This document shows, piece after piece, positions 7,520 through 40,793 of a DNA stretch of 46,001 nucleotides. Every line of letters starts with the position of its first letter. Position 1 is the first letter of the stretch. This stretch comes from a virus. Below the pieces are notes generated by a model. The model was not told where the DNA came from. It saw only the letters and a list, made by a program, of their open reading frames with translations, and did no database searches. The position numbers and the translations under genes are program-made. The stretch lies in the IMG/VR virus record IMGVR_UViG_3300046462_000599, positions 1 through 46,001 of that record; one strand, written 5' to 3'.

Positions 7520-7851
7520 TCGTCGAGCACGAGCCCGGCGGGCGCAGCATCGCCGACACCGACGCCCTCACCGCCATCACCACCCGACCACCCGCACTCA
7601 TCCGCCGCCACGGCCACCGCCTCCCCACCGGCCGCTACGACGTGCAACAGACCATCGAACAACTCGCCCACCTCCCCGACCCCGTCCTCCTCACCGCCGC
7701 CGACGCACACCGCTACCTCGGCATCCCCGACGGCACCATCCGCTCCTGGGCAAGCCGCGGCCTGCTGCGTTCCTACGACCGCGACCCGTCCGGGCGACCG
7801 CTGTACGACGCCGCTGACCTGCACACCCTCAACGACAGGAGCCGCCCATGA
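7516..7851 (+). CDS. MerR/HTH_17-like DNA-binding protein
   Basis: 111 residues from TTG at 7516, overlapping the previous stop as TTGA. Residues 60-105 form a MerR-type helix-turn-helix: LTAADAHRYLGIPDGTIRSW, then RGLLRSYDRDPSGRPLYDAA with the usual wing. The N-terminal 55 residues are unassigned. Such single-domain proteins act as phage regulators or excisionases; because another Xis-like gene sits at 43559, this one is more likely a regulator. Confidence 0.75.
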   Translation: MIVEHEPGGRSIADTDALTAITTRPPALIRRHGHRLPTGRYDVQQTIEQLAHLPDPVLLTAADAHRYLGIPDGTIRSWASRGLLRSYDRDPSGRPLYDAADLHTLNDRSRP

Positions 7852-8677: not shown

Positions 8678-9279
8678 CCAAGGCCAAGGACAACCCCGGC
8701 CCGCGCTGCGGCAAACGCACCCGCCGAGGCGGCACCTGCCCGAACTGGCCCATCGTCGGCGGCACCGTCTGCCGCATGCACGGCGGCCGAGCCCCCCTCG
8801 TCGCAGCCAAAGCCGCAGTCCGCGCCGAAGTCCTCGCCTGGGGCCTCGGCACCGCACACGCCGACCCCGGCGAAGTCCTCCTCCGCCTGGTCACCCAGTC
8901 CGCTCAGCGCGCCGGACTCCTCGCCGCCCGCCTCGAGCAGCTCGTCAACGAACACGGCGGCGACCTCCTGGTCGCGATGGTCGGCGACACCGTCATCCTC
9001 GACCCCCAGACCGGGCGCGAGGTCAAGAGCGGCGAGTACATCCGCGGCCTCGCTGTCCTCGAAGGCCAGGAACGCGACCGCTGCGCCAGCTTCGCCGCCA
9101 AGGCCATCGCCGCCGGCCTCGCCAAACGACAGGTCGAACTCGCAGAACGCCAGGGAGCACTGATCGCCGAGCTCCTCGTCGCCGTGCTCACCGACCCGGC
9201 CCTCGGCCTGACCGCGGAGCAGCGCAGGCAGGTGCCCGATGTCGCTCGACGTCACCGGCTCCGGCTGGTCGCCAGCTGA
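8674..9279 (+). CDS. Terminase small subunit
   Basis: 201 residues from ATG at 8674. N-terminal zinc-finger-like pattern C12, C22, C33, H36 ending in CRMHGGRAP, a signature of actinophage small terminase proteins. The rest is helical (residues 45-195) with conserved-looking ERDRCASFAAKAIAAGLAKR, probably for oligomerisation. It binds the packaging site and hands DNA to the large subunit, whose start lies 41 bases inside this gene. Confidence 0.8.
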   Translation: MTKAKDNPGPRCGKRTRRGGTCPNWPIVGGTVCRMHGGRAPLVAAKAAVRAEVLAWGLGTAHADPGEVLLRLVTQSAQRAGLLAARLEQLVNEHGGDLLVAMVGDTVILDPQTGREVKSGEYIRGLAVLEGQERDRCASFAAKAIAAGLAKRQVELAERQGALIAELLVAVLTDPALGLTAEQRRQVPDVARRHRLRLVAS

Positions 9280-10750
9280 CCTCGCCGCCTTCGACACCGC
9301 CCTCCTGCTCCTCGAAGCGCAAGAGCAGGCAGAACGCGACCGCCTCGACGGCTCAGCCTGGGTATCGCGCCGGCTCGGCGAGTTCCTATGGTCGAAGCAG
9401 CGCGAGATCATGGACTCCGTCCGGGACAACCGCTACACGGCCGTCCAGGCCTGCCACGGCCCCGGCAAGAGCCGCGTAGCGTCCCGGATCGCCGCCTGGT
9501 GGATCGAAACCCACCCGCCCGGCACCGCGAAAGTCGTCACCACCGCACCCACCGGCGACCAGGTCCGCATCATCCTGTGGTCCGAGATCAACGATGCCGC
9601 GAACGTCGCCGCCGCCCGCGAGCAGCCATTCGTCGGCCGCCTCAACGAGACCGAGTGGAAGATCGGGAAGTGGTCGGCCGGGATCGGCCGCAAGCCGTCC
9701 GACCACAACACGCACGCCTTCCAGGGCCAGCACGCCGAGTTCCTCCTCGTCATCATCGACGAGGCCTGCGGTGTCGTCTCCCAGTTCTGGAAGGCCGCCC
9801 GCGCCCTCATGACCGGCCCCCACTGCCGGCTGTTGGCGCTCGGCAACCCCGACGACCCCGGCAGCGAGTTCGCGAAGAACTGTGCGAACCCGCGCTGGAA
9901 CACCATCAAGATCTCGGCGTTCGACACACCGAACTTCACCGGCGAACCGATCCCCGAGCAGCTACGGAACGTGCTGGTCGACCAGGAGTACGTCGATGAC
10001 ATGGCCGCCGAGTACGGCATCGACTCCCCGACCTACATCAGCAAGGTCCTCGGCGAGTTCCCCGACGAGAGCGAAGACGGCGTCGTCCGCCTCTCCGCCC
10101 TCCGCGCCTGCGCACTCCCCGAGACCGCACCGCGCACACCCGAGGAACTGCTGCCGGTCGAGCTCGGTGTCGACTTCGGGGCCGGCGGCGACCAGACCGT
10201 CATCGTCGAGCGCCGCGGCGCCGTCGTCGGCCGGATCTGGCGCGACGGCGGACGCGACCCCATGCACGTCGCCGGGCTCGTCCTGAACGCCATCCGCGAG
10301 ACGGGCGCCACCGCAGTGAAGTGCGACGTGATCGGCATCGGGTACGGCATCGTCGGGCGTCTCCGCGAGCTCGGCCAGAACGGTGCCCACCAGGCCAACG
10401 TCGTCGGCGTGAACGTCGGCGAGAGCAGCACCGTGCCGGCACGGTTCGCAAGGTTGCGGTCGCAGATCTGGTGGGAGATCGGCCGGAAGCTGTCCGAGGA
10501 CCGCGGCTGGGACCTGTCCGGTGTGCCCGAGCGGGACCGGGAACGGTTCGTCAGCCAGTTGACGGCGCCGAAATACAAGCTCGACAGCTCCGGCCGGATC
10601 GTGGTCGAGCCGAAGGAAGAAACCAAGCTCCGGATCGGCCGGTCCCCGGACGACGCCGACGCGCTGCTGCTCGCCTTCTACCGGCCGCAGGGTGACCAAG
10701 CCTCGGCGCTGGACTGGGTCCGTCAGGCCCAACAGGTTCGAGCTGCATGA
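9239..10750 (+). CDS. Terminase large subunit
   Basis: 503 residues. ATPase: Walker A HGPGKS at residues 73-78, an APTGDQVR motif near 103, Walker B LLVIIDEA at 169-176. Nuclease of RNase H fold: acidic residues D312 (LGVDFGAGGD), D363 (KCDVIG) and the SPDDADALLLAF block at 469-480. It pumps DNA into proheads and cuts the concatemer. Length is typical. Overlap with the small subunit and ATGA contact with the next gene fit a late operon. Confidence 0.95.
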   Translation: MSLDVTGSGWSPADLAAFDTALLLLEAQEQAERDRLDGSAWVSRRLGEFLWSKQREIMDSVRDNRYTAVQACHGPGKSRVASRIAAWWIETHPPGTAKVVTTAPTGDQVRIILWSEINDAANVAAAREQPFVGRLNETEWKIGKWSAGIGRKPSDHNTHAFQGQHAEFLLVIIDEACGVVSQFWKAARALMTGPHCRLLALGNPDDPGSEFAKNCANPRWNTIKISAFDTPNFTGEPIPEQLRNVLVDQEYVDDMAAEYGIDSPTYISKVLGEFPDESEDGVVRLSALRACALPETAPRTPEELLPVELGVDFGAGGDQTVIVERRGAVVGRIWRDGGRDPMHVAGLVLNAIRETGATAVKCDVIGIGYGIVGRLRELGQNGAHQANVVGVNVGESSTVPARFARLRSQIWWEIGRKLSEDRGWDLSGVPERDRERFVSQLTAPKYKLDSSGRIVVEPKEETKLRIGRSPDDADALLLAFYRPQGDQASALDWVRQAQQVRAA

Positions 10751-10764
10751 TGAGGAGGTCGATC

Positions 10765-13332
10765 GTGGCCCAGCGCCGCCGCCCGTACCGCCTCGCCGGC
10801 ACCACCAAGGCGCTCCCTGCCGCGCTCACCACCTCGACCGCCGGGCAGGTCCGCACCGCCGACCAGGTCACCGCGCTCGCGCAGCTGCACAACCAGATGG
10901 GCACCGTCGCCACCCCGCTACCCCGCGACCTCTACCCGTACCAGTTCGGGCCCGGGATCCCGCTCAACCCGGCACCCCTCGACCCCGTACGCCGCGACAC
11001 CGGCCGAGCCGAACCGCGCATCTACGACTACCCCGTCTCCTGGAACCTCCCCGGCCAGCAAGGCCGTCTCATCCCCTTCTCCGTGCTGCGCCGGGCCGCG
11101 GAGATGCCGATCCTCGCCGACTGCATCCGCATCCGGAAGGAAGAGATCTCCACCCTGCAGTGGGAGATCGGGGTATCGCCGCGCGCTGTCGGCGCCGTCC
11201 AGCGTGAGCAGCCCGGCACGAGCCGTCACATCGCGGAGAAGACGATCCGCGAGTCGATGATCCCCGAGATCGAACGCCTCACCCACTGGTGGCAGGAACC
11301 GGACCGCGGGAACGGCTACACGTTCGAGCAGTGGATCACCCAGCTGTTGGACGAGCGGCTCGTCATCGACGCGCTCGCGATCTACCCGCGCTGCACGCTG
11401 GGCGGCGACCTGTACGCGTTCGAAATCCTCGACGGCGCCACGATCAAGCCGTTGCTCGACCACCGCGGCGGCCGACCCATGCCGCCCGAGCCGGCCTACC
11501 AGCAGCAGCTCCACGGCTTCCCCCGCGGCGAGTTCACCGCCGACGTCTCCGTCGACGAGGACGGCACACCGACGATCCCGGGCGGCTACCCCGCCGACCA
11601 GCTCATCTACCGGCGCCGCGACGTCCGCACCTGGACCCCCTACGGCCGCTCACCCGTCGAGATGGCGTTGCTCGACCTCGACACGTGGATGAAGCGGCAG
11701 GCCTGGATTCGTGCCGAGTACACCGACGGGGTCATGCCCGGCGGCTGGCTCCGCTGGTCCGACAACAACCCCGACGTCATGTGGAGCCCGCAGCAGGTCC
11801 TGGAGTACGAGACCGCACTCAACGACCTGCTGTCGGGGGACACGGCCGCGCGGAAGCGGTGGCGCATGCTGCCGCCCGGTGTCGTACCGGAGCCGGCCGG
11901 CGCCGGTGAGGCGGAGCGCTACAAGCCGGAGTACGACCTGTTCCTGCTCAAGCTGCTGGTCGCGCACTTCGACATGACCATCCACGAGCTCGGCTTCACC
12001 GAAACGCAAGGGTTGGGCTCTGCCGGGCATCAGGTGGGCCAGGAGAACCTGAACGAGCGGAAGGGGTCGAAGCCGACCCTGAAGGCGATCCAGGCGATCC
12101 TCACCGACATCTCCCGCGCGCACCTGGGCATGCCACCCGAGCTCGAGTTCCGGTGGACCGACCTCGCCACCGACGAAGGGGACGCGGACACGGTCATCGC
12201 CGAGCAGGTCGGTGCCGGACTGCTCACCTTGAACGAGGGCCGCGACGAGACCGGCCGGCCCAGGTATGACTTCGCGGAAGCGGACATGCCAGCCCTGTAC
12301 GCGCCGCGCACTGGGACGATCACCTTCTTGGAGGGTGCGTCGATCGCGGAGCAGCCTCCGGTGGAGCAGGATGCCGGGTTCACCGGCGCCACCGCGCAGC
12401 CCGGCGCGCCCGGGCAGGACAAGCCCAGGCCTGGGACGGCTCCTCCCGGGTCTGACGGCCGCACCGGCGGGGAGGGCGCGAAAGCTGCTGAGGCTGCCGC
12501 GTACCACCGGTGGGCGCGGAAAGGCCGGCTTGGTCGCCGGTTCGAGCTGCAGCTCATCGCCTCCCCGCCGGAGCTGGCCTTCTACGGCATCGACCCGGAC
12601 CGGGTGATGCTGGGAAAAGCGGTGGGCGGCCCGACACCTGAGCGGGTCGCGCAGTGGCCAGGCTGGACCCAGGACCAGGACGCCGCCCGCGAGCGGTCCC
12701 GGCAGCTCCGCGAGGCTGTGCGGCGCGCGTTCGAGCAGGACGCGCTCCTGCTGGCCGGATGGTGGCTGGACCGGGCCGTCGACACCATGTCCCTGACGGC
12801 GGCGGTCGCGTTCCTGGCCGGCCACGGCATCAACGACGACGCGATGACGGCGGCGATCCGGCCCGCGATCGAGGGGATGGCCGAGGACGGGGCGCGGATC
12901 GGTGCCGCATCCGCAGAGCTGCTCACCGGCGCATCGGGTGCACCACCGTCGGCGGTGCTCGGTGATGTGGCGTCGATCGCGCACCACCGTGTGGAGCAGC
13001 TCGCCCAGATCCTCGCCAACCCCACCACCACCGACCCCGACACGCTCGGGCGGCAGCTGCAGCAGGCCATCAACGACCCCGCCTGGGCTGACGAGGTCGC
13101 CGTCACCGAGACCAGCCGGGCCGTGAACGAGGCCGCACGCCGCGTGTACGAGCACGCCGGGATCGCGACGGCGCGCTGGCTGTCGGAGAACGACACCCGG
13201 GTGTGCCCCGTCTGCGACCGCAACGAAGCCGCAGGCCCGGTGCTGCTCGGCCATCCCTATCCATCCGGCGACGTCGCGCCGCCCGCGCATCCGCGCTGCC
13301 GCTGCGTCCTACTCCCGGTCCTGGAGGGCTGA
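10765..13332 (+). CDS. Portal protein fused to MuF-like minor head domain
   Basis: 855 residues from GTG at 10765, chosen because GAGGAGG lies 5-6 bases upstream; an ATG at 10747 in the same frame is possible. Residues 1-510 are a portal protein (LRRAAEMPILADCIRIRKEE, RRRDVRTWTPYGRSPVEMAL, GLGSAGHQVGQENLNERKG). After a Pro/Gly-rich linker, residues 580-855 form a MuF/SPP1 gp7-like domain ending in TETSRAVNEAARRVYE, WLSENDTRVCPVCDRNE and PPAHPRCRC. Portals form the 12-mer DNA entry ring; the fused domain probably goes inside the head. Such fusions occur in other actinophages. Confidence 0.9.
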   Translation: MAQRRRPYRLAGTTKALPAALTTSTAGQVRTADQVTALAQLHNQMGTVATPLPRDLYPYQFGPGIPLNPAPLDPVRRDTGRAEPRIYDYPVSWNLPGQQGRLIPFSVLRRAAEMPILADCIRIRKEEISTLQWEIGVSPRAVGAVQREQPGTSRHIAEKTIRESMIPEIERLTHWWQEPDRGNGYTFEQWITQLLDERLVIDALAIYPRCTLGGDLYAFEILDGATIKPLLDHRGGRPMPPEPAYQQQLHGFPRGEFTADVSVDEDGTPTIPGGYPADQLIYRRRDVRTWTPYGRSPVEMALLDLDTWMKRQAWIRAEYTDGVMPGGWLRWSDNNPDVMWSPQQVLEYETALNDLLSGDTAARKRWRMLPPGVVPEPAGAGEAERYKPEYDLFLLKLLVAHFDMTIHELGFTETQGLGSAGHQVGQENLNERKGSKPTLKAIQAILTDISRAHLGMPPELEFRWTDLATDEGDADTVIAEQVGAGLLTLNEGRDETGRPRYDFAEADMPALYAPRTGTITFLEGASIAEQPPVEQDAGFTGATAQPGAPGQDKPRPGTAPPGSDGRTGGEGAKAAEAAAYHRWARKGRLGRRFELQLIASPPELAFYGIDPDRVMLGKAVGGPTPERVAQWPGWTQDQDAARERSRQLREAVRRAFEQDALLLAGWWLDRAVDTMSLTAAVAFLAGHGINDDAMTAAIRPAIEGMAEDGARIGAASAELLTGASGAPPSAVLGDVASIAHHRVEQLAQILANPTTTDPDTLGRQLQQAINDPAWADEVAVTETSRAVNEAARRVYEHAGIATARWLSENDTRVCPVCDRNEAAGPVLLGHPYPSGDVAPPAHPRCRCVLLPVLEG

Positions 13333-21707: not shown

Positions 21708-21737
21708 AGCTGCTACCAGCGCGAGGGGGTGACCCTC

Positions 21738-24296
21738 GTGGCTGACGCCTACCTCCCGCCGGTCATTTCGAGGCTGCTCGGCGACATTTCGGACTTCCTC
21801 GCGGCGTGGGATACCGCTGCGGAGACCGCGGAGGCGGACGCGGCGCGGATCGTGGCGGCGCAGGACGCCGCCAGTGGAGGCCCGGGCGCCGGGGGTGGTG
21901 GCGGTACGGCGCAGGCCGCCGACGATGCGGCGACGCTGCAGGCGGCGCTCGACGAGACGACCGTCGCGGCGGAGGCCAACGCGGCAGCGCTGGATGATGC
22001 GGGGGCGTCCGCGCAGGCCGCTGGCGCGGACTACGACACCGCAGCCGCTGAGGTTTCCGCGGCCGCGGCCGCCCTGGACACGGTCAGCGGCGACGCGGGC
22101 ACCGCGGGCAGTGCGATGCAGGACGTGGGGCTCGCCGCCGAGCAGTCCGCCGGCCGGATCGACGTGCTCGGCGGGTCGACGCGTGGTCTGACGCAGGAGC
22201 AGCAGGACTGGGCCCGCGTGCTGGAGGAGACGCGGGCGGCGATGGACGCCTCCCGGGCGACCGCGGCCGAGGTGTCGACGTCGTACGACTCGATGGGCCG
22301 CTCGGTCGATGACGTCATGAAGGCGATGGCGAACGGTGAGGGCTCGATCCGCATGGCGGACGGCTCGACCCGGTCATGGAAGCAGGGTGCCGAGGAGGCC
22401 GCGCAGGCGGCGGAGAAGCTCGGCTCCAGTGCGGGGCAGGCCGCGGACGACACCGCGAAGCTGGAGCGCGCCTCAGCGGCCGGGGCGTCGACGGCGCAGA
22501 TCTTCAGCCGGGCGTTGTCGCAGACCCCGGATGCGATCGACGGGATCACCGCCGCGGTCGCTGTAGCGGCACCGCTGCTGATCGGGTTCTCCACCGGTCT
22601 GGCGGCGATGGCCACCGGCGCCGGTGTGGTCGCGCTCGGTATCGACGGCATGGAAGCGGCGCTCAACCAGCTCAACGTCGGGCTGGAGCCGTTGCGGGTC
22701 GCCGCGAACTACGCCTTCGAGAAGACGATGTTCCCCGCGGTGAACGAGGTGAACAAGGTTCTGCCGCAGCTCACCGATGGCGTGTCGAATGTGGCGCACT
22801 CGATCGGCGACATGGGGCGCAGCCTCGCGGATGTGATCTCCAGCTCGAAGGGCATCCAACAGCTCAACGACTGGCTGGCCGGGACCACCGATTTCTTCGA
22901 GCAGGGCGTACGCGGCACGCACGACTGGTCCGACGCCATGCTCACTTTCCTCGACGCGGCAGCGCCAGCAATGGGCAAATTCGGCGAAGACATCGCCGAT
23001 GTGATGACGGACTTCGACAAGATGATCCAGAAAGCTGCGGCTACCGGTGAGATCGCGGATGCGATCTCCGGCGCCGGTGATGTGATGAAGGGCTTCGGGG
23101 AACTCGTCACCGATGTGGCGTCTGCCTTCATGAAACTATCAGCCGATTCGGGTTCTAGCGTGGGTCCTGCGCTGAAGGCGATCGGGGATGCGTTGGTTCA
23201 GGCGGAACCAGCGATTTCGGAGTGGGTGAAGGGCTTCGCCGACTTCGTGTCCATCGCGGCGAAGGTGGTCACTCTGTTCGACGGGTTCAAGGACCCGCTC
23301 TCCTACATTGCGGGGGCATTGGTCGCGATCGGGCTCGGGCTGGCGGTGTTCAAGGTCGTGATGTCGCCGCTCACGAACCTGGTCGGGATTCTGTGGGATC
23401 TCGGGAAAGCGTGGACCGGGGCTGGTACAGCTGCGGACGTGGCGGCTGGAGAAACCGTTGTCGCCGGTACTGCCGCGGAAGGCGCCGCCGGGGGCGTCGC
23501 GACCCTCGGGGCAGCGTTGGCGAGCTTCCTGGTTGAGGCGGCACCGTTCATCATCGTCGGGCTCGCGATCGCGGCGGTCGCCTACATTATCATCCAGGAC
23601 TGGGGGCCCATCTCGGGGTTCTTCTCGGACCTGTTCGGGAAGATCGGGCAGCTTTTCCAGGGATTCGGCGACATCCTGAAGCAGGTTTCCGACTGGGGCA
23701 AAAACGTTCTCGACGGCCTATTCGGTGGCATGAACGATGGTATGCAGTCCGGGGAGGGCACGATCGGTTCGATCGTCGATTCCATCATCGGCGGCTTCAA
23801 AAACCTGTTCGGGATCCAGTCGCCGTCGACGGTGTTCGCTGAGATGGGCACCAACATCGCCCAGGGCCTGTTGCAGGGCATCGAGGATGGTGCCAGCTCG
23901 GTGATTCAGGGGATCGAGAAGCTGGCGGCCGACATCATCAACGCCGCGAAGGGCGCCCTCGGTATCCAGTCGCCATCGACGGTGTTCGCGGACCTGGTGG
24001 GCGCGGAGATCCCGGCCGGGGTCGGCGCGGGGATCATCGCGAACGCGCACACGGCGACGGACGCGGCTCGGGCGTTGGCCGCGCAGACAGTCACCGCGGG
24101 CATGGTCGGTGTCGGCGCCGGGATCAACGCCGGTGGTGGTGCGCAGCTCGGCGGGGGCACCGCTGGCGGCCAGGAGACGTACACCCTGCACGTCGGCTCG
24201 GGTTCTGACTCGGCCATGGGCACCGCGATCGCGAAGCTCATCCGAACCGGGAACCTCACGATCCAGCGCACGCACGTCGGGGGGCGGACCCAGTGA
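21738..24296 (+). CDS. Tape measure protein
   Basis: 852 residues from GTG at 21738 (GAGGGG nine bases upstream; GTG at 21729 is an alternative). Ala-rich coiled-coil N-terminal 200 residues, then several hydrophobic segments around residues 265-300, 535-560 and 600-625 that can insert in the host membrane. IQSPSTVF occurs twice near the end (about 697 and 748), common in tape measures. It sets tail length; at about 1.5 angstrom per residue the tail would be near 130 nm. Longest gene of the tail module. Confidence 0.9.
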   Translation: MADAYLPPVISRLLGDISDFLAAWDTAAETAEADAARIVAAQDAASGGPGAGGGGGTAQAADDAATLQAALDETTVAAEANAAALDDAGASAQAAGADYDTAAAEVSAAAAALDTVSGDAGTAGSAMQDVGLAAEQSAGRIDVLGGSTRGLTQEQQDWARVLEETRAAMDASRATAAEVSTSYDSMGRSVDDVMKAMANGEGSIRMADGSTRSWKQGAEEAAQAAEKLGSSAGQAADDTAKLERASAAGASTAQIFSRALSQTPDAIDGITAAVAVAAPLLIGFSTGLAAMATGAGVVALGIDGMEAALNQLNVGLEPLRVAANYAFEKTMFPAVNEVNKVLPQLTDGVSNVAHSIGDMGRSLADVISSSKGIQQLNDWLAGTTDFFEQGVRGTHDWSDAMLTFLDAAAPAMGKFGEDIADVMTDFDKMIQKAAATGEIADAISGAGDVMKGFGELVTDVASAFMKLSADSGSSVGPALKAIGDALVQAEPAISEWVKGFADFVSIAAKVVTLFDGFKDPLSYIAGALVAIGLGLAVFKVVMSPLTNLVGILWDLGKAWTGAGTAADVAAGETVVAGTAAEGAAGGVATLGAALASFLVEAAPFIIVGLAIAAVAYIIIQDWGPISGFFSDLFGKIGQLFQGFGDILKQVSDWGKNVLDGLFGGMNDGMQSGEGTIGSIVDSIIGGFKNLFGIQSPSTVFAEMGTNIAQGLLQGIEDGASSVIQGIEKLAADIINAAKGALGIQSPSTVFADLVGAEIPAGVGAGIIANAHTATDAARALAAQTVTAGMVGVGAGINAGGGAQLGGGTAGGQETYTLHVGSGSDSAMGTAIAKLIRTGNLTIQRTHVGGRTQ

Positions 24297-28271: not shown

Positions 28272-29018
28272 GTGGGCGAGCCGCCCGTCACGCTGCAGGC
28301 CTTCCACCACGACGGGCCCGGGAACCTGCCGCCCACGCGGGTGGTCATTCACGCCACCGTGCCGGGCGTCGGCTACCCCGGCGCGTCGGCGGCGGGGATG
28401 GCGGCCAGCACCGCGCGCTACTTCCAGCTCGCGACCTCGGGCGGCTCGGCCCACTACATCGTCGACATTGCGGGCGAGCAGCACTGCGTCGCCGACAACA
28501 CGACTGCTTGGCACGCGCCCCCCAATATCCACTCGCTGGGTATCGAGATCTGCGCCGAGTCCACCTACACCCGCGAGCAGTGGCTCAGCCCCGCCGTGTG
28601 GCCCGCTGTGCTGCTCGCTGCGGCCCGTACAGCGGACCTGTGTGCCCGGTACAACATCCCGCTCGCCTACGTCGGCCCGGCCGCGTTGATAGCCGGTGCG
28701 CGCGGGATCTGCGGGCACGTCGACGTCTCCAACGCGTGGCACCAGACCGATCACACCGACCCCGGTCCCGGGTTCCCGTGGCCCGAGTTCCTCACCGCCG
28801 TCGTGGCGGCATCTGCGACAGGAGACGACGTGGCCTGGTCCGATCAGCTCCCCGACCTGTACCCGGGCGCCCCGAAGCGCACCATCGACGCCGGCACCCA
28901 GCTGGCGTTCGCGAACGCCCACGCTGCGCAGGCGTTGGATGCTGCGAACGCGGCACTGGCCCTGTGCCGGTCGATGGCGGCCGATCTGGCCGCGATCAGG
29001 GCGAAGGTCGGCGCGTGA
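28272..29018 (+). CDS. Endolysin, N-acetylmuramoyl-L-alanine amidase
   Basis: 248 residues from GTG at 28272. Amidase_2/PGRP fold: VVIHATVPG with H27, STARYFQ, AHYIVD, AWHAPPNIHSLGIEICAES, then ICGHVDVSNAWHQTDHTDPG with H149 and D163 as further zinc ligands, and GFPW. It cuts the amide bond between muramic acid and the stem peptide at the end of infection. The C-terminal 60 residues are a helical, Ala-rich tail, perhaps for oligomerisation or wall binding. No signal peptide, so a holin is needed. Confidence 0.92.
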   Translation: MGEPPVTLQAFHHDGPGNLPPTRVVIHATVPGVGYPGASAAGMAASTARYFQLATSGGSAHYIVDIAGEQHCVADNTTAWHAPPNIHSLGIEICAESTYTREQWLSPAVWPAVLLAAARTADLCARYNIPLAYVGPAALIAGARGICGHVDVSNAWHQTDHTDPGPGFPWPEFLTAVVAASATGDDVAWSDQLPDLYPGAPKRTIDAGTQLAFANAHAAQALDAANAALALCRSMAADLAAIRAKVGA

Positions 29019-34118: not shown

Positions 34119-34451
34119 TTACCGGCCGTACCGGTTGACCAGGTCCGCGAACCGGCGCGCATCCAACCCAACCCTGCGGCCGAGGGACTGCTCACGCAGC
34201 AGCGTCGCGGACGGGCCGACGATCGACAGGTACACCGACCGGCCGTGCCCGGCGTCCTCGACGCGGGCGGTGAGGCCCTTCACCGGCATGCTGGCACCAC
34301 CACGGCCGATCAGCAGGGTCGTCGGGGTGAGGCGCAGGTCCATGAAGGTGGCGACGACGCCCTGGGCCGCGTCCCGCTTGGCCTGCGCCCGGCCGAGGAG
34401 AACGACACCCACCATGACGGCGACCGCACCGATCCAGAGCACACCGTCCAT
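34119..34451 (-). CDS. Membrane-anchored small protein
   Basis: 110 residues. One N-terminal membrane helix (VLWIGAVAVMVGVVLLG), then a soluble domain with LRLTPTTLLIGRGGASMPVKG and LDARRFADLVNRYGR, reminiscent of a PH-like fold. Last gene on this strand, separated from the transfer-like operon by the CTAG-repeat region. A role in immunity or exclusion is possible, without evidence. Confidence 0.6.
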   Translation of the reverse strand: MDGVLWIGAVAVMVGVVLLGRAQAKRDAAQGVVATFMDLRLTPTTLLIGRGGASMPVKGLTARVEDAGHGRSVYLSIVGPSATLLREQSLGRRVGLDARRFADLVNRYGR

Positions 34452-34507
34452 GCGAAGAGTTCGCCCCGGCCGAACACGACGTTACGGCGATCACGTGCAC
34501 GAGCGCC

Positions 34508-34577
34508 GCTAGCCTGCACTAGCACCCCCGCTAGCACCCGATCATGCCTCTGACCTGCACGCTAGCGGCTAGCACCC
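34508..34577. repeat. CTAG-rich direct repeats at the 3' end of the TraB-like operon
   Basis: CTAGCACCC occurs three times (34519-34527, 34531-34539, 34569-34577) and GCTAGC twice more (34508 and 34561); CTGCAC precedes two of the sites. Five CTAG tetramers in 66 bases is striking because CTAG is rare in high-G+C actinobacterial DNA. The block begins right after the stop of the gene at 34578. Candidate recognition repeats for TraB (clt), or operators for the gene at 34119. Confidence 0.55.
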
Positions 34578-34805
34578 TCACGAGCCGACACCCCGAAACC
34601 AGTCCCACAGCCGCCGGCCGACCCTGAACCACGAGCCGCTACCGCTGCAGGTCCGGCACCGCCGGAACGTCTTCCCCGACTTCGAGCGGTGCTTCCCCGA
34701 GCCCTTGCAGCACCAGCAGTTGGCCAGCGGGAACCACCAGCAGGCGAGCACGTAGTAGCCCAGCACGACCACAGCGCAGATGCCGAAGAACGTCGTCGCC
34801 GTCAC
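34578..34805 (-). CDS. Small membrane protein with DnaJ-type zinc motif
   Basis: 75 residues, GTG start at 34805 overlapping the TraB-like gene stop (GTGA). Hydrophobic N-terminus (FFGICAVVVLGYYVLACWWF), then CCKGSGKHRS and CRTCSGSGSW, a CxxCxGxG pair as in DnaJ zinc fingers. Similar little proteins accompany traB in actinobacterial integrative elements, as I recall. May assist the transfer complex at the membrane. Confidence 0.7.
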   Translation of the reverse strand: MTATTFFGICAVVVLGYYVLACWWFPLANCWCCKGSGKHRSKSGKTFRRCRTCSGSGSWFRVGRRLWDWFRGVGS

Positions 34806-36865
34806 CGTTCCAGCTCGCGCTTCGCGAGCGCCTCCATCACCCACTCAACGCGGTACCCGCGTCGGTTCGTGCCATCGATCGACACCTGACCGGGCCCGAT
34901 GCCGTGCGGCTTCAACGCCGCGGCGAGCGCATCCGGGTTCCACTCGCCGTACAACTGCGGGCGCAGCTCGGCGAGCCGCTCGAGGAGGTCCTCGGTGTGG
35001 ATCCGCTCGGCCGTGGCGAACACCGTGCGCACATCCATCAGGAGGTCCACTGTCTGGCCGCCGTCGACCTGCTCCCCGGCGGCGTGCCCGGTGAGGAGTC
35101 CGGCCTTCTCCCGGGCCAGGTAGGCGCGGGCGACGATGGCGTCGGTGGCGGCGGCGTCGAGGTAGTAGGTGCGGCCGACAATCGGGGCGTCGGTGGCGCC
35201 GACGAGGTAGCCGATGCCGCGGTCGGACTTGGTGAACATGGTGGCCCGGATCCCCTGCTTGTAGCTCGAGGTGCCGAGCACCATGTCGTTCTCGATCTGG
35301 CCCATCACCCGCATGCAGAACCGGGTGCCCACGTTCGCGCTGACCCCGGTCGGGAGGGAGTCCTTGTCGGGGCGCTGGGTGGCCAGCAGCAGCGTCACGC
35401 CGAGCGCGCGACCGCGCTTGATGATGGCGGTGGCCAGCTCCCCGGCCTCCTTGCCGTGCTCGCCGTGGGAGAACAGCTCCTGGCACTCGTCGACGGTGAA
35501 CACGATGGGGTGCAGGCCGAGGCCGCGCCGGTTCGCGAGCTCGCGGGTCACCTTCGAGTCGGGCACCAGGTCCCGGGCCCGCTGCCGCAGCGCCTTGAGC
35601 CGCTCGGCGCGGCGCCCGACCTCGGCGAGGAGCCATCGCAGGCCGGCGAGGCACTGCCCGATGGTGTCGTCGTCGACTCCGGAGCCGTAGGCGTGCGCGA
35701 TTCGCGCGAACGACTCGAGGTCGCCCGACCCCTTGAGCTCCCAGATGTGCAGCTCGATGGTGGGGTCGAGGGCGCACCCGGCGAGGATGCATCGGACGCC
35801 CGCGGTCTTCCCGGCGCCCGGCAGTGATCCGATGAGCATGTTCGACTCGGTCAGCGGGAGCCCGACGGCTCGGCCGCGTTGGTCGGTGGCGAAGGGGAGG
35901 TTGGCGAAGTAGTCGGCCGCGCCGGCCTTCCGCAGCGGGTAGGGGGCTGGTCGGGCCTTCGCCATGTCCTGCATTCCGACCCAGAGGACGAGCCGTCGGG
36001 GGTGGACTTCGGGGTCGCCTTCGGGCCAGACGCAGCCGAGGGGGCGGCCGAGGTTGCCGGCGAACACGGCGCGCTTCTCCATGACGTCGGAGGCGGTGAC
36101 GCCGAGGGGGAGGTCGATGTCGGCGCGCCAGCCGGGGCCGTCGACGCGGATCGGATGCGCGTAGTCGATCTTTGCTTCGCGGCCGGTCATCGCGGAGATG
36201 CCGCATGATCGTAGGGCGGCTGTGACGTTGTCGCTGGTCAGCTTGGGTGCGACACCACTGTTCACGAGTGCTCCGAGGACGATGGGGCGGTCGGCGGGCT
36301 GGCCGACACGGCCGAGGAATCCGATCAGGACGATGAGCACGGGCAGCTGTATGAGGGCGGGCGCGGCCACGGCGAGCACTGCGAGGGCGAGCAGGCCGGC
36401 GAGGACGCCGACAGCGGCGGGTGTGCGGGCGCGGACGTGGCGGCGCCGGGCGGCGATGAGTTTCTGGTAGGTGTCGGCGTCCCGCTTCTCTACGGCGTGC
36501 CGGCGGAGCGGTTGGGCTTCCGCGTCGAACCAGGCGGCGTGGCCGCGGCGAGCGAGCCGGTGGGCGCCCCGGGGGGCGTAGACGGCTGCCCGAGCGCCGT
36601 ACCAGGGCAGCCGCACCGCGTGGTAGGCGATCGTCGCGCCGCCGCGTTCGGCGACGAACCGGGCGACCTGCTTGCGCTCGTCGCGGTTCCGCATCCAGGC
36701 GGGCACGACCGGGCGGCGTTCGGCGACGCTCCAGCCGGTGACGGTGCCGTAGATGGTCTGCCGTTCACGCGGGCCGTCGACCGGATCGAGCGGCTGCTCG
36801 ACGGGCTGGACGAGCTCGGCGTCGGGGCGCTTCTCGAGGTCGACGTTGCCGTTGGTGTCGGTCAC
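34802..36865 (-). CDS. traB: TraB/FtsK-like DNA translocase
   Basis: 687 residues, GTG start overlapping the upstream stop (GTGA). Membrane segment(s) at residues 148-185; motor domain with Walker A GSLPGAGKT (346-354), Walker B IVFTVDEC (454-461) and LLLATQRPDKDSLPTGV (492-508); C-terminal winged helix (626-680: YGEWNPDALAAALKPHGIG, NRRGYRVEWVMEA). This is the layout of TraB of actinobacterial plasmids and AICEs, which moves double-stranded DNA between mycelial cells. Unusual in a phage; the alternative is a chromosome-style or packaging-related FtsK function. Confidence 0.85.
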   Translation of the reverse strand: MTDTNGNVDLEKRPDAELVQPVEQPLDPVDGPRERQTIYGTVTGWSVAERRPVVPAWMRNRDERKQVARFVAERGGATIAYHAVRLPWYGARAAVYAPRGAHRLARRGHAAWFDAEAQPLRRHAVEKRDADTYQKLIAARRRHVRARTPAAVGVLAGLLALAVLAVAAPALIQLPVLIVLIGFLGRVGQPADRPIVLGALVNSGVAPKLTSDNVTAALRSCGISAMTGREAKIDYAHPIRVDGPGWRADIDLPLGVTASDVMEKRAVFAGNLGRPLGCVWPEGDPEVHPRRLVLWVGMQDMAKARPAPYPLRKAGAADYFANLPFATDQRGRAVGLPLTESNMLIGSLPGAGKTAGVRCILAGCALDPTIELHIWELKGSGDLESFARIAHAYGSGVDDDTIGQCLAGLRWLLAEVGRRAERLKALRQRARDLVPDSKVTRELANRRGLGLHPIVFTVDECQELFSHGEHGKEAGELATAIIKRGRALGVTLLLATQRPDKDSLPTGVSANVGTRFCMRVMGQIENDMVLGTSSYKQGIRATMFTKSDRGIGYLVGATDAPIVGRTYYLDAAATDAIVARAYLAREKAGLLTGHAAGEQVDGGQTVDLLMDVRTVFATAERIHTEDLLERLAELRPQLYGEWNPDALAAALKPHGIGPGQVSIDGTNRRGYRVEWVMEALAKRELER

Positions 36866-37044
36866 AGCAGTTCCCTCGCGAGCAGGATCGCTAGGCCGAC
36901 GACGATCACGCCGACGAACCATGTCATGGCGACGTTCATGAACGCGTCGAACTCGGGCCAGACCGAGGCGAGGACGCCGACGCCGGCGAGGATGACGAAC
37001 ACGCTGGTGATGCGCCGGACCTCTCCCGCGTTGTCGTCGCTCAT
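36862..37044 (-). CDS. 60-residue membrane protein of the transfer operon
   Basis: ATG at 37044 and stop overlapping the TraB start; both overlaps are 4 bases. Two hydrophobic stretches (ITSVFVILAGVGVLASVW and NVAMTWFVGVIVVGLAILLA). A two-span miniprotein directly coupled to the translocase, perhaps a Spd-type spread protein. Confidence 0.7.
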   Translation of the reverse strand: MSDDNAGEVRRITSVFVILAGVGVLASVWPEFDAFMNVAMTWFVGVIVVGLAILLARELL

Positions 37045-38141
37045 GCTTCTCCGCCCGCTGCCGCCTGCTCGGCCGCCCGGGGTAGCCAGCCGAGGAGGTT
37101 GAGGAGTCGTGTGGCGCGTGGGCTGCCCATGCCGTACATGTCCTTGACCTCGTCTCGGGAGTAGCGCCGCCCGGTCCGCCCGGCGATCGCCCGCAGGTCA
37201 TCGATGACGGCGCCGTCGCGTTCGACGTCGACGGCCGCCCGCCGGTCCGGGATGCCGCCCGCTGCCGCCTGCTCGGCCGCCCGCTCGGCTTCGACGGCCT
37301 TCCGGAGGGCCTCGAACTCGTCTTCCAACAGCACGATGGGCGGCGGCTCGGGCGGCTGGGCGGCACCCCTGGGACGCCGCGCCGCCCGCTCGGCCGCCCG
37401 CGCGGCGCGCCGTGCTCGACGGGCCGCCCGCTGCCGCTCGTGGTCGGCCTTGAAGCCCTCCCACGCGAGCCGCGGGTCGGTGACGCCATGGTCGATCGAC
37501 CAGCGCAACGCCAGCACCGTCCGGATCGGGAACCAGCGGTACCGCTCGGCCGCGAACACCGCACCGGTGGAGTCCAGCTGGCCCTCACGCGAGAGCTGGA
37601 CGCGCTGAGCCCGGCGGGTGTGCAGCCCCCACAACCACGGGCCGGCTGCCGAGAACAGCGCGAAGCAGACCGCCGCCGGGGTTGGGTTCCACCCGGCCGC
37701 GGCGAAGTGGCTGTAGTTCACCGTCGCCACGCCGAAGGCCAGCAGGTAGGAGACGCGCCGCTGGCGCGCCGCGGTCAGGGTGTGGTTGTGCAGGAGGGCG
37801 TCGTGGGCGTGCCACTGAACGTAGAGGGCGATGGATTCGACGGCCACGGCCACGCTGCAGGCGAGCAGCAGGCGAAGCGGCAGTACCCACTCGGGAGGTG
37901 TGATCGCGGCCAGGGCGTAGACGACCTGCCCGTACATCGCAAGGCCCGTTACCAGCGAGATCGGGAGTACCGGCCGCAGTCGGCGCGCGACGGCCACCGC
38001 GCGGGCCGTGCGGGCGGCTCTGCGCGCGCCTCGATCGGCACGGCGCTGGCGCCTTTCCTCGGCGCGTTCGGCGAGATTTGCCGCGCGCTCTCCCCGGCGG
38101 AACTCTGCGAGCGCCTGACGCTGTTCGATCTTCGTGTTCAT
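37041..38141 (-). CDS. DUF2637/SpdB-like membrane protein
   Basis: 366 residues from ATG at 38141 (ATGA overlap upstream). Very basic N-terminus (residues 1-50), then about four membrane helices within residues 55-175, including SLVTGLAMYGQVVYALAAI and LLACSVAVAVESIALYVQW, and a long charged, Arg/Ala-rich C-terminal region ending in a putative HTH-like piece (YSRDEVKDMYGMGSPRATRL). The layout matches DUF2637 proteins next to traB in Streptomyces plasmids and AICEs. A 29-base direct repeat encodes RAAEQAAAGG twice. Confidence 0.75.
   Translation of the reverse strand: MNTKIEQRQALAEFRRGERAANLAERAEERRQRRADRGARRAARTARAVAVARRLRPVLPISLVTGLAMYGQVVYALAAITPPEWVLPLRLLLACSVAVAVESIALYVQWHAHDALLHNHTLTAARQRRVSYLLAFGVATVNYSHFAAAGWNPTPAAVCFALFSAAGPWLWGLHTRRAQRVQLSREGQLDSTGAVFAAERYRWFPIRTVLALRWSIDHGVTDPRLAWEGFKADHERQRAARRARRAARAAERAARRPRGAAQPPEPPPIVLLEDEFEALRKAVEAERAAEQAAAGGIPDRRAAVDVERDGAVIDDLRAIAGRTGRRYSRDEVKDMYGMGSPRATRLLNLLGWLPRAAEQAAAGGEA
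37051..37283. repeat. 29-base direct repeat pair inside the DUF2637-like gene
   Basis: The same 29 bases lie at 37051-37079 and 37255-37283, 204 bases apart (68 codons, in frame). Both copies encode AAEQAAAGG on the minus strand. Recombination between them would remove 68 codons without a frameshift. Confidence 0.75.
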
Positions 38142-38329
38142 GGGGTGATCTGCTTTCCGCAGGTGGCGCAGCACACGACTCGCCGGTCCCAGGTGGTGGG
38201 GTGGCTGAACATGACCGGCCGTACGCAGTCGCGTTCGTGTGCTGCGATGCGCGGGTCCGGGTTGGTTGTGCTGGTGGTGATGCCGGGGGCGCCGACCATG
38301 GCGCCGTGGTTGCACGTTCCGGGGGCCAT
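38138..38329 (-). CDS. Small Cys/His protein of the transfer-like operon
   Basis: 63 residues from ATG at 38329, chosen because GGAGG lies eight bases upstream on this strand; an ATG at 38344 is less likely. Contains GTCNHGAMVG near the start and VVCCATCGKQITP at the end, a split four-Cys zinc site. ATGA overlap with the DUF2637-like gene. Confidence 0.65.
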   Translation of the reverse strand: MAPGTCNHGAMVGAPGITTSTTNPDPRIAAHERDCVRPVMFSHPTTWDRRVVCCATCGKQITP

Positions 38330-38481
38330 CAGTACCGCCTCCATCCGGCAGGTGCCCGCCTGGTCCAGCGCTTCCGACGGGGGAGACGCTGGAACTCGAC
38401 GCGGGCCTGAATCTCGGCGGCGTGCTGCGGGTTGGTGACGCCGCGGCGGCGCTCGGCGGCGATGTCCTGGGCGATCGTCAT
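38329..38481 (-). CDS. 50-residue basic miniprotein
   Basis: ATG at 38481 (ATGA overlap upstream), stop overlapping the next start (TGATG). Helical start MTIAQDIAAERRRG and a strongly basic end (RRKRWTRRAPAGWRRY). May bind nucleic acid. Found by reading the gap between neighbours. Confidence 0.55.
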   Translation of the reverse strand: MTIAQDIAAERRRGVTNPQHAAEIQARVEFQRLPRRKRWTRRAPAGWRRY

Positions 38482-38738
38482 AGCCGAGCCGCCATCGCTT
38501 CGGCCTGATCGGCCGCCAGGAAGGCGTATTTCATGGCGTCATCGACATGCTGCATGGAGCAGTCGATCGTCGCGATGCACTCGCTGAAGTCGTGCTGCGA
38601 GGTGCCCTCCATGGCGCCGTGCAGCATCTGATGTGCCTCGTAGCCAGTCTGGTGTCCTTGTCGGAGCGGCCCGCAGGCTTCGTGCAGCTTCGTGCTGGCC
38701 GCCATGAGCTGGGCCTTGATCTGGGCGATGTCAGCCAC
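38478..38738 (-). CDS. DUF6244-like small helical protein
   Basis: 86 residues from GTG at 38738. Two long amphipathic helices: IAQIKAQLMAASTKLHEACG and the C-terminal DDAMKYAFLAADQAEAMAAR. Resembles a helical miniprotein family (DUF6244, from memory) encoded in actinobacterial integrative elements next to traB. Function unknown; coiled-coil partner likely. Confidence 0.65.
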   Translation of the reverse strand: MADIAQIKAQLMAASTKLHEACGPLRQGHQTGYEAHQMLHGAMEGTSQHDFSECIATIDCSMQHVDDAMKYAFLAADQAEAMAARL

Positions 38739-38901
38739 GACGACCTCGCAGGAGGTTGACGGCGGCCTCGATCAGGGTGCGGGAGCAGTCGCCACGATGA
38801 GCAGCGTGGCGCATGCAGTCGCTGCGTCGTGCACACGGCGTGCCGCTGTAGGGGCCGGTCGCGGGGCTACCGCTGGCGTACGGCCCGGTCGTGGCGCCCA
38901 T
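38731..38901 (-). CDS. 56-residue Cys-containing miniprotein
   Basis: ATG at 38901, coupled upstream (TGATG). Gly/Pro/Thr-rich beginning, then CARRSDCMRHAAHRGDC, four closely placed Cys/His residues, and a helical basic end (IEAAVNLLRGRRG). Possible zinc finger. Confidence 0.55.
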   Translation of the reverse strand: MGATTGPYASGSPATGPYSGTPCARRSDCMRHAAHRGDCSRTLIEAAVNLLRGRRG

Positions 38902-39074
38902 CAGAGCATCACCGCGACGGAGTCGAGTCGATCGAGCGCAGCCTGCTCGGCTTCCCATTGGAGGTCGAGCAGTTCCCACCAGGCCAGCACCCGGATGCGT
39001 GGCCGGTCGCAGTTGGGGCAGGTGCCGTTGGTGTACAGCGAGGCGCCGCAGTTGCCGCAGGTCCCGGACGCCAT
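38901..39074 (-). CDS. 57-residue zinc-ribbon protein
   Basis: ATG at 39074. N-terminal CGNCGASLYTNGTCPNC is a clean four-Cys ribbon of the rubredoxin-knuckle type, followed by one helix (WELLDLQWEAEQAALDRL). TGATG coupling on both sides. Likely nucleic-acid or protein binding. Confidence 0.65.
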   Translation of the reverse strand: MASGTCGNCGASLYTNGTCPNCDRPRIRVLAWWELLDLQWEAEQAALDRLDSVAVML

Positions 39075-39337
39075 CACCGGGCCCAGCCCGGCCCGTAGAC
39101 GCTCGCCCAGCCCGGCTGGGTGACGTCGGCCCAGCCGGCGGCTGCGGGGGAGACGAGGCAGTCCTTCGGGCCCGTGGTGCCTTCGAGTTCGGCGAGGCAG
39201 TCGAGGGTGCCGAGGTGTGGGTCGTCGTTGTAGACGAACCAGTGGGTGGCGTGTGGGGCGGTGGTGGGCGGGTAGTAGGCGTAGTAGGGGGTGAAGGTGG
39301 CGGCGAGCGCCGCGAGGAGGGCGATCATCAGCGGCAT
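39074..39337 (-). CDS. Small secreted or membrane-anchored protein
   Basis: 87 residues from ATG at 39337. N-terminal signal-like hydrophobic segment (PLMIALLAALAATFTPYYA), then a soluble aromatic-rich domain with two Cys (LDCLAEL, KDCLVSP) that could form a disulfide outside the cell. An exported partner in a transfer operon could act at the cell surface; only inferred. Confidence 0.6.
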   Translation of the reverse strand: MPLMIALLAALAATFTPYYAYYPPTTAPHATHWFVYNDDPHLGTLDCLAELEGTTGPKDCLVSPAAAGWADVTQPGWASVYGPGWAR

Positions 39338-39540
39338 CAGACGTCGCCCCCGGTGCGGTTGCCGTCCTTGTCGACGCGGTGGCTGTCCTGGTCGAGCCAG
39401 CCCTCATAGCCGGACTCGCGCTGGCGATAGAACCGCTTGCCCGCGTCGGTGTTCGGGGTCTTCCCGTCCCACCCGAACACGCGGTCGCCGTTCTCGTCCC
39501 GCTTGGGACGAGGGGTGCGCTTGCTGCTGAGGATTCCCAT
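39337..39540 (-). CDS. Small charged protein
   Basis: 67 residues from ATG at 39540, chosen for AGGAAGG upstream. Highly charged: SSKRTPRPKRDENGDRVFGW, then KRFYRQRESGYEGW. Contains repeated DxNG turns (DENGD, DKDGN) that look like beta-turns rather than EF-hands. Family unknown. Confidence 0.6.
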   Translation of the reverse strand: MGILSSKRTPRPKRDENGDRVFGWDGKTPNTDAGKRFYRQRESGYEGWLDQDSHRVDKDGNRTGGDV

Positions 39541-39541
39541 G

Positions 39542-39628
39542 TCAGCGTCCTTCCTCTGGATCATCCAGGGGTTCCCAGCAGGTGATGTCCACATCGCAGT
39601 CCTGGGTGTCGTCTTCGGGATCGCTCAT
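39542..39628 (-). CDS. 28-residue acidic miniprotein
   Basis: ATG at 39628, directly after the stop of the upstream gene (shared base). Very acidic with two Cys (EDDTQDCDVDITCWEPLDD). The site AGGAAGG of the next gene lies at its end. Plausible but short. Confidence 0.4.
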   Translation of the reverse strand: MSDPEDDTQDCDVDITCWEPLDDPEEGR

Positions 39629-39789
39629 CACTCGATCACCGCGTGCCACTCGGCAGTGCGCTCGTCGATCACGCGCTGCAGCTGCTCGTCGTTGTTGAAC
39701 TCCTGGCCCTGCTGTAGGACCGCCTGTGCGGCCGTGTAGTCCCGGGTGTCGTACCCCGGACCTGGCTTCTCGACGTCGCCCCGGCCCAT
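39628..39789 (-). CDS. 53-residue hypothetical protein
   Basis: ATG at 39789. Mixed polar; C-terminal helix from EFNNDEQLQRVIDERTAEW. Sits second in the operon; no domain recognised. Confidence 0.55.
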   Translation of the reverse strand: MGRGDVEKPGPGYDTRDYTAAQAVLQQGQEFNNDEQLQRVIDERTAEWHAVIE

Positions 39790-39790
39790 G

Positions 39791-39976
39791 TCAGCGGCCC
39801 GCCCTGTGCTTGATCTCGTCGACGATGAGGGAGTCGGACGAGCCGAACGGCAGCTCTGCCCGCTTGTCCAGGCGCGCCTGTGCTGCGGCCTCACCGGTGG
39901 CGTGACGGCCGACGGTGGACTTCTCGTCCGTCTCGCCGTCGGTCTTGACGATCTTGTAGTTCGGCTTCCAGGGCAT
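39791..39976 (-). CDS. First gene of the transfer-like operon, hypothetical
   Basis: 61 residues from ATG at 39976, with GAGGAG upstream. Basic/acidic mixed: PWKPNYKIVKTDGETDEKST, then a helix (GEAAAQARLDKRAELPF). Its start is 31 bases from the first palindromic operator, so it should be the first product under that control. Confidence 0.6.
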   Translation of the reverse strand: MPWKPNYKIVKTDGETDEKSTVGRHATGEAAAQARLDKRAELPFGSSDSLIVDEIKHRAGR

Positions 39977-40006
39977 CGGGTTCTCCTCGGTTGAGGTGGC
40001 GAGGTG

Positions 40007-40062
40007 CTTGCAACCTTGCAAGCCAGGGCCTTAGTCTGCACACCACCTTGCAACTTTGCAAG
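40007..40062. promoter_or_regulatory. Twin palindromic operators between divergent genes
   Basis: CTTGCAA-CC-TTGCAAG at 40007-40022 and CTTGCAA-CT-TTGCAAG at 40047-40062 are perfect 7-2-7 palindromes, centres 40 bases apart. They lie between the minus-strand transfer-like operon (first start 39976) and the plus-strand HTH gene (40087). TATCAT at 40074-40079 may be the -10 of the plus promoter, with TTGCAA at 40049 or 40056 near the -35. Best guess: sites for the HTH protein encoded at 40087. Confidence 0.75.
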
Positions 40063-40086
40063 TAGGCATCCCCTATCATCCGCCGA

Positions 40087-40371
40087 GTGGCGGACCTGAC
40101 TCCCGAGGTGATGAATGCGCTGGTCCGACTCATGAACGGCGATACCGACTACCGGTCGATGTCGACCGATGACCTCTTCCGCGTCGCGACGTTCGCCAAG
40201 GACGGGCGCGCCACGCTGCACGAGGTCGTCCTGGTGCTGCGCGAGAAGGGCTTCACGTTCGCGCAGATCGGGGAGCGGCTCGGCGTGACCGAGTCCGCCG
40301 CATCTCGCTGGGTGACACCGCCGCGGCCGCCCGGCCGCCGGCCGCGCGCCGAAGAGGACGACGAGGCGTGA
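40087..40371 (+). CDS. HTH regulator, probable repressor of the transfer-like operon
   Basis: 94 residues from GTG at 40087. Residues 45-78 hold a helix-turn-helix (EVVLVLREKGFTFAQIGERL, GVTESAASRWV) and the tail is basic then acidic. It is divergent from the operon and separated by the twin palindromes, the layout of an autoregulated repressor such as the Kor-type genes of Streptomyces plasmids (different family). The possible -10 is only 8 bases from the start, so the mRNA may be nearly leaderless. Confidence 0.75.
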   Translation: MADLTPEVMNALVRLMNGDTDYRSMSTDDLFRVATFAKDGRATLHEVVLVLREKGFTFAQIGERLGVTESAASRWVTPPRPPGRRPRAEEDDEA

Positions 40372-40562
40372 CGGCCGCGCCCCTGTTCCTGCTGTGGTGC
40401 CGCGAGTGCACGCCCGTGCCCGAGCTGGACAACGCGCTGCCGTTCACGAGCATGGCCGAGCGCGGACGCTGGGCGGCCGCGCATCGCGCTGGGACTGGAC
40501 ACGACAAGTGGCTGGCACCCGATCCTCTGCCGCAGCCAGTTGCCGAGGGCGACGAGGCGTGA
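40368..40562 (+). CDS. Small Cys/His/Trp protein downstream of the HTH regulator
   Basis: 64 residues from GTG at 40368 (GTGA overlap). Contains LWCRECTPVPELD and AAAHRAGTGHDKW, a possible zinc site. Co-transcribed with the regulator. No family known to me. Confidence 0.6.
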   Translation: MTAAPLFLLWCRECTPVPELDNALPFTSMAERGRWAAAHRAGTGHDKWLAPDPLPQPVAEGDEA

Positions 40563-40576
40563 ACGGCGCGCTCCCG

Positions 40577-40793
40577 GACTTATCCATGGGAAATGGAGGC
40601 GCCGTGATCCACTCCATGCACGCTGTGCACACCATCACCGCAGGTCAGAGCGCCGTACGGGAACACAGGCCACCCCATGCGCAGGGAAGATCTAATCTCT
40701 AGGTCGCAAGTTCGAATCTTGCCGGGGGCACTCTGACCAGCGGAAACGTTGGCCACAAGATCACTCCTCCAAGATCACCCATGACTTATCCAT
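40577..40793. other. attP: attP region: tRNA 3'-end core with flanking arm-type repeats
   Basis: Core 40703-40730 is the T-arm (gcaag ttcgaat cttgc, 40706-40722) and 3' acceptor strand (cgggggc plus A) of a tRNA; no full tRNA is present. GACTTATCCAT occurs on both sides, at 40577-40587 and 40783-40793, and CAAGATCAC twice on the right (40756, 40770). This fits integrase core and arm sites. It lies 79 bases beyond the 3' end of int. Isotype not certain (Lys or Arg plausible). The stretch 40563-40808 holds no convincing gene. Confidence 0.8.

Follow-up and report, generated by a model that had tools for sequence, protein, structure and literature searches.

A TraB-type transfer module and its candidate clt in a complete temperate phage

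The module and the phage that carries it

The virus record IMGVR_UViG_3300046462_000599, whose entire 46,001 bases form the window analysed here, carries a transfer module of the type known from actinobacterial integrative and conjugative elements (AICEs). The module is a minus-strand operon (34578-39976) that lies between the late genes and the phage attachment site (attP) and is read toward the late genes. Its core encodes a zinc-ribbon miniprotein, an SpdB-like membrane protein, a 60-residue protein with two spans, a 687-residue TraB-type translocase, and a DnaJ-zinc miniprotein (Table 1). An earlier note on this DNA had described a block of this make-up, set between the late operon and attP of an otherwise complete phage. 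The open reading frames (ORFs), their domains, and the phage gene set bear this out, including the zinc ribbon, the DnaJ-zinc membrane protein, and the two-span miniprotein (by inspection), but not the DUF6244-like protein. The gene in question, which codes for 86 residues, has no DUF6244 match in Pfam or NCBIfam; its only matches are sub-threshold ones to Destabilase and WXG100.

The window also encodes RecT, a terminase, a portal-MuF fusion, a head protease, tail and tape measure proteins, an endolysin, and an integrase. The genes that mark a temperate tailed phage (terminase, portal, protease, tape measure, lysis genes, and integrase) are thus all in place, and the record is a complete phage of this kind. 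Its first 65 or so bases are repeated at its own end, with about 59 of the 65 alike (some six differences), so the genome is probably circular and cut beside a 12-base tandem repeat, GGCCGCTGCCGG, present in 23 copies at 45680-45961 near the contig end. The attP is uninterrupted and, of four genomes searched, the one that matches it best is that of Pseudonocardia dioxanivorans (93% over 41 bases). The last late gene (32547-34058) codes for many repeats of about 20 residues (VTDTLGLADxVTR...) and, at the C-terminal end, an 11-residue tandem repeat (QLHAGTxxxAG).

As the earlier note proposed, the module has a regulator and operators of its own. Twin operators of the form CTTGCAA-NN-TTGCAAG sit between the operon and a divergent helix-turn-helix (HTH) regulator, which presumably acts as a repressor. 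A prophage of P. dioxanivorans (L002/L006) has a regulator 56% identical to it beside two like sites, ACTTGCAGAAGTGCAAGT and ACTTGCAGAACTGCAAGT; the operators are thus kept in form, though not letter for letter. The zinc-ribbon protein, compared by eye, also has a counterpart there, coded by one ORF in the window and by two overlapping ORFs in the prophage (8709-8938).

The SpdB-like protein is less clear. The DUF2637/SpdB assignment made in the earlier note holds for its counterpart by position in the same prophage, which passes DUF2637 (29.8 against 22.8 bits), but not for the window's own product in Pfam. The two proteins have a C-terminal HTH-like stretch in common. In a profile comparison with the DUF2637 proteins of other elements, the match is weak and covers only 36 C-terminal residues, and the AlphaFold2 model is poor, with a predicted local distance difference test (pLDDT) score of 62.6. 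The label therefore rests on the prophage counterpart and on position.

Table 1. Features of the module and of the phage genome around it
Feature	Position	Strand	Remark
Terminase large subunit	9239..10750	+	phage hallmark
Portal-MuF fusion protein	10747..13332	+	phage hallmark
Tape measure protein	21729..24296	+	phage hallmark
Endolysin	28272..29018	+	phage hallmark
clt-like repeat array	34505..34576	.	words GCTAGC(C)/CTAGCACC/GCTAGCACC ... CTGACCTGC ... GCTAGC/GCTAGCACC
Membrane-anchored DnaJ-type CxxCxGxG zinc miniprotein, 75 aa	34578..34805	-	start overlaps traB stop (GTGA)
TraB-type FtsK/SpoIIIE double-stranded DNA translocase, 687 aa	34802..36865	-	GTG start; N-terminal membrane helices, motor, C-terminal winged helix
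60-aa protein, two hydrophobic spans	36862..37044	-	by inspection; without significant family match
SpdB/DUF2637-like membrane protein, 366 aa	37041..38141	-	C-terminal HTH-like region
Small protein with CxxC	38138..38344	-	overlaps start of SpdB-like gene
86-aa protein	38478..38738	-	probably helical
Zinc-ribbon miniprotein	38901..39071	-	WWExLDLxWE motif; counterpart in L002
87-aa protein of the operon	39074..39337	-	unassigned function
85-aa (or 68-aa) protein of the operon	39337..39594	-	unassigned function
Small protein, first gene of the operon	39791..39976	-	
Operator CTTGCAACCTTGCAAG	40007..40022	.	
Operator CTTGCAACTTTGCAAG	40047..40062	.	
Divergent HTH regulator of the module	40087..40371	+	56% identical in L002
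attP core	40694..40730	+	3' end of tRNA-Arg
Tyrosine integrase, 404 aa	40809..42023	-	

The translocase and its relatives

The translocase passes the Pfam FtsK_SpoIIIE cut-off (30.2 against 24 bits), and the key residues of its Walker A (GSLPGAGKT) and Walker B (IVFTVDECQE) motifs are invariant in the family. Its AlphaFold2 model (pLDDT 84.9) consists of long hydrophobic N-terminal helices, a motor, and a C-terminal winged helix, and the best Protein Data Bank matches of the motor are FtsK motors, some of them bound to double-stranded DNA. The three parts of a TraB-type protein, namely an intact Walker A/B motor, an N-terminal membrane anchor, and a C-terminal winged helix, are all present, as the earlier note had read them.

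A hidden Markov model of the family, built from eleven relatives of the translocase, finds the TraB protein of the Streptomyces plasmid pSVH1 at 5e-64 and two other Streptomyces plasmid TraB proteins at 2e-61 and 3e-58. Chromosomal FtsK proteins score about 1e-12, most EccC-like proteins 1e-18 to 1e-10, and the FtsK of phage LittleE 2e-17. The NCBIfam plasmid_TraB model matches the window's protein weakly (27.5 against 800 bits), which points to a separate branch of TraB. The protein is 74% identical to that of the P. dioxanivorans prophage, 52% to that of the plasmid pPaSha2 of P. alni, 45.5% to that of a Streptomyces plasmid with AICE genes, and 45-54% to those of chromosomal loci in Micromonospora, Streptomyces, Saccharothrix, and others. 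Judged by its sequence, the translocase groups with the TraB proteins of AICEs and not with FtsK, EccC, or phage FtsK. The phylogeny that the earlier note had called for places it inside a TraB family that AICEs share, far from those three groups.

Similarity to AICEs was also expected among the neighbours, and it is found in the DnaJ-zinc miniprotein, in the DUF2637/SpdB-like proteins upstream, and in a shared cis array described below. The labels phage and AICE come from marker genes found in stretches of up to 22 kb, or from the record; rows labelled "un" lack markers or sequence. The 21 loci called AICEs carry AICE-type replication, transfer-region, or integrase genes of the Streptomyces plasmid, and 20 of them, like the window phage, have a gene for a DnaJ-zinc membrane miniprotein 3' of traB. 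The miniprotein (YxxxCxxxPF...CxxCxG...CxxCxG; for example, L007-L035) is near-universal in the AICEs of this TraB family.

The module is not unique to the window phage but recurs among phages. A profile scan of IMG/VR gave 89 contigs with the TraB family, of which 80 were kept. Among 50 contigs tested, 39 also have the terminase phrog_9 and 21 have a DUF2637 match, 15 of these above the family cut-off. In the trees, phage and AICE rows are interleaved in one family, with several switches in one direction or the other; the deepest branch within the family consists of phage rows in both tree runs. Because of the patterns by which loci were found, the sample leans toward the conserved core of the family. 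The module also sits on unrelated backbones, such as the P. dioxanivorans prophage and pPaSha2 (CP052773), a circular phage-plasmid of 41.9 kb that joins phage head genes, traB, and DUF2637. A circular plasmid of P. broussonetiae (unnamed3, NZ_CP053567.1, L041; 27.4 kb) combines phage head genes, traB, DUF2637, and Prim-Pol. With its AICE-type Prim-Pol, primase, TraB, DUF2637, terminase, capsid, and short tail region, this plasmid is a phage-AICE hybrid.

Beyond the module, the window has little in common with its closest traB relatives, which use other packaging and portal families. Kinship of its backbone with other traB phages at the level of genes was considered and dropped, as there is almost none apart from the module and a few isolated matches. 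A literature search for phages with TraB or SpdB found none, most subscription journals being outside its reach.

The repeat array 3' of traB

Directly 3' of the traB and DnaJ-zinc genes lies an array of about 72 bp that the earlier reading of the sequence had missed. On the plus strand it reads GCCGCTAGCCTGCACTAGCACCCCCGCTAGCACCCGATCATGCCTCTGACCTGCACGCTAGCGGCTAGCACC, and it holds each of the window's four GCTAGC sites and five of its 14 CTAG sites. Its layout is two words, a spacer of about 14 nt, CTGACCTGC or CTGATCAG, and two more words. Aligned elements from phages, pPaSha2, and AICEs have the same layout next to traB, with spacing that hardly varies, while the words are specific to lineages (GCTAGC, TCTAGC, GCTACC, GCTATC, GGTTTCG, GGTCGC, and GGAACA).

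Clusters of short words were ranked against a Markov background, after a plain first ranking had yielded noise from GC-rich coding words. In 57 of 112 loci the top cluster lies between -30 and 480 nt from the traB stop (about 2.8% expected by chance), and in 106 one of the top four does so. As a positive control, the scan recovers repeats of the GACCCGGA type 3' of pSVH1 traB; we take GACCCGGA to be the motif that pSVH1 TraB recognises. A constant site, CTGRBCWG, is present in 67 of the 106 arrays compared to 26 of 312 control stretches. Searching the other way, with two DNA patterns taken from the array, gives 50 of 2.9 million viral contigs, and in 49 of them traB lies beside the array; since related contigs are not independent, these show linkage rather than 49 separate events. 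One IMG/VR match to the array patterns, L176, has no traB in the 7.2 kb examined. Among 43 non-redundant loci, array similarity tracks that of the winged helix even after the motor is accounted for (partial Mantel r 0.34, p 0.001), and the converse is weaker (0.155, p 0.018).

In Streptomyces plasmids, transfer depends on the cis-acting locus clt. The clt of pWTY27 lies at the 3' end of tra, directly 3' of it, and is made of short repeats, while pSVH1 TraB recognises repeated 8-bp motifs through helix 3 of its winged helix (PMC3583192). Given these features together with the position, layout, linkage, and winged-helix covariation of the array, it is proposed as the candidate clt of the whole TraB family, that of AICEs included, and the window's TraB would bind it. 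It has no Rfam match, and the idea of an RNA family was dropped. The 12-base tandem repeat at the contig end was discounted as a clt, given its distance from traB and the different location of the conserved array.

Other repeats were seen as well. CTGACCTGC occurs five times in the window (also at 7814, 933, 40640, and 44967, once beside attP); 9-mers of the same composition occur 0.7 times on average, and 1.7% of them reach five. In the largest phage clade (L086, L092, L099, and others), a palindrome-like CTTGACCGCAGGTCAG followed by TGT(C/A/G)ACGATC is found about 396-830 nt 3' of traB. This site is 3' of the gene after traB, has the look of a promoter with an operator, and includes the constant site of the array.

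Known systems and possible functions

Known elements resemble the window in part. AICEs (Ghinet et al. 2011, PMC3218068) have in common with it a single-protein TraB-type translocase of double-stranded DNA, an upstream DUF2637/SpdB protein, a tyrosine integrase, a DnaJ-zinc miniprotein and a repeat array 3' of traB, and the 3' end of a tRNA as the attachment site. The window differs in having the full set of head, tail, packaging, and lysis genes. Of the traits of an AICE, it has the integrase with its att site and the transfer protein but no replication initiator: no Prim-Pol or related gene was found (RepSA and RepAM were not searched separately), and nothing in it matches the Prim-Pol, YfjI, and primase proteins of two plasmids. 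In pSVH1 the order is the same, from regulator through small genes, SpdB2, and TraB to a repeat array 3' of traB. However, its TraB is about 30% identical over 56% of the length, its repeat words are unrelated to GCTAGC, and no phage genes are annotated on this 12.7 kb plasmid. The phage-plasmid pPaSha2 is similar in joining phage genes with TraB, DUF2637, DnaJ-zinc, and the array in a complete circular replicon, but it is recorded as a plasmid, whereas the window has attP and an integrase. The FtsK-like proteins of mycobacteriophage cluster J and of Streptomyces phage Gilgamesh have the same FtsK/SpoIIIE motor, though the identity (about 26-31%) is confined to it. Those of cluster J are without the N-terminal membrane domain (PMC3706429), and the FtsK of LittleE, unlike that of the window, has no SpdB or DnaJ-zinc partner annotated alongside.

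On balance, the window is probably a temperate actinobacterial phage with a self-contained AICE-type TraB module that would move its own double-stranded DNA between compartments or hyphae. The most economical reading is of a working system that recognises the phage's own DNA and carries it from one hypha to another, along a hypha, or both, controlled by a regulator distinct from the lytic switch. In a lysogen, or on the excised circle, the putative repressor would hold the operon off through its two operators. On relief, the SpdB-like, two-span, zinc, and TraB proteins could assemble at a septum or hyphal tip, in the membrane, where the winged helix of TraB would dock on the array as its clt. 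The hexameric motor would then drive the phage genome, as an unnicked double-stranded circle, into an adjoining compartment or a mating hypha, and in the recipient the genome may integrate at tRNA-Arg or go lytic. We infer both the transfer and the order of these steps from the sequence.

Several points weigh against this function. No close relative of the translocase is present in 50,697 deposited phage records; such phages may plaque poorly, few phages may have been isolated from such hosts, or both. The SpdB assignment is weak, the product having no Pfam match of its own. The covariation of array and winged helix could in part be shared ancestry, for which the partial Mantel test corrects incompletely, and in the window's clade the array is inverted with respect to traB and displaced beyond the DnaJ-zinc gene.

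One could also consider that TraB and SpdB carry phage DNA across septa and so colonise the mycelium, with no mating with other colonies. Spd proteins serve such spread (PMC9513070), and the named hosts found are filamentous actinobacteria. Transfer of Streptomyces plasmids to another mycelium, however, needs TraB and clt (PMC3583192), and the window keeps TraB and a clt-like array, which makes spread of this kind alone rather unlikely. It is improbable that the phage uses the motor for itself, in lytic growth or in segregating an episomal prophage (for example, by sorting DNA at septa), with the array as a loading site. FtsK-like genes of unassigned role do occur in phages such as those of mycobacteriophage cluster J (PMC3706429), and several members of the largest phage clade have traB on the strand of the terminase, 2-5 kb upstream of it; in the window, however, the module is encoded on the other strand from the late operon and has a regulator of its own, and AICEs that are not phages have the same module and array.

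The module could potentially be captured cargo without function for the phage, an AICE piece that recombined in and is now being lost. Although the interleaved tree and the little that the window shares with its traB relatives would fit, the main ORFs are intact and there are phage-only clades with a long shared history. Decay is also argued against by the conserved operator form and array and by an excess of silent changes among phage traB genes (dN/dS, the ratio of nonsynonymous to synonymous substitutions, 0.28-0.40 by NG86, approximate for such GC-rich genes); this origin is thus very improbable. Most members of the family are metagenomic or predicted proviruses, as would suit contigs that fuse a phage with an adjacent AICE. 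Such an artefact is hardly credible, since two circular plasmid records join phage head genes, traB, and DUF2637 in one circle, the overlapping ends of the window probably close one circle as well, and traB and the terminase occur together in most of the contigs tested.

The function favoured here, transfer of the phage's own double-stranded DNA, leads to a broader proposal. The chances seem about even that many temperate phages of actinobacteria form a large and unrecognised dual-mode group, spreading as virions and by TraB-driven conjugation of double-stranded DNA with a matching clt, and that phages and AICEs have repeatedly swapped the module, leaving the border between them open in these hosts. 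Present tools miss such elements, since MOB-suite types pPaSha2 as non-mobilizable. What is new here is the clt-like array 3' of the traB operon, a candidate docking site for TraB. If the proposal is true, the temperate phages of filamentous actinobacteria would gain a second, particle-free route of spread, and double-strand conjugation would join the known modes of phage travel. This would offer a new view of host range, superinfection, and gene flow in these antibiotic producers.

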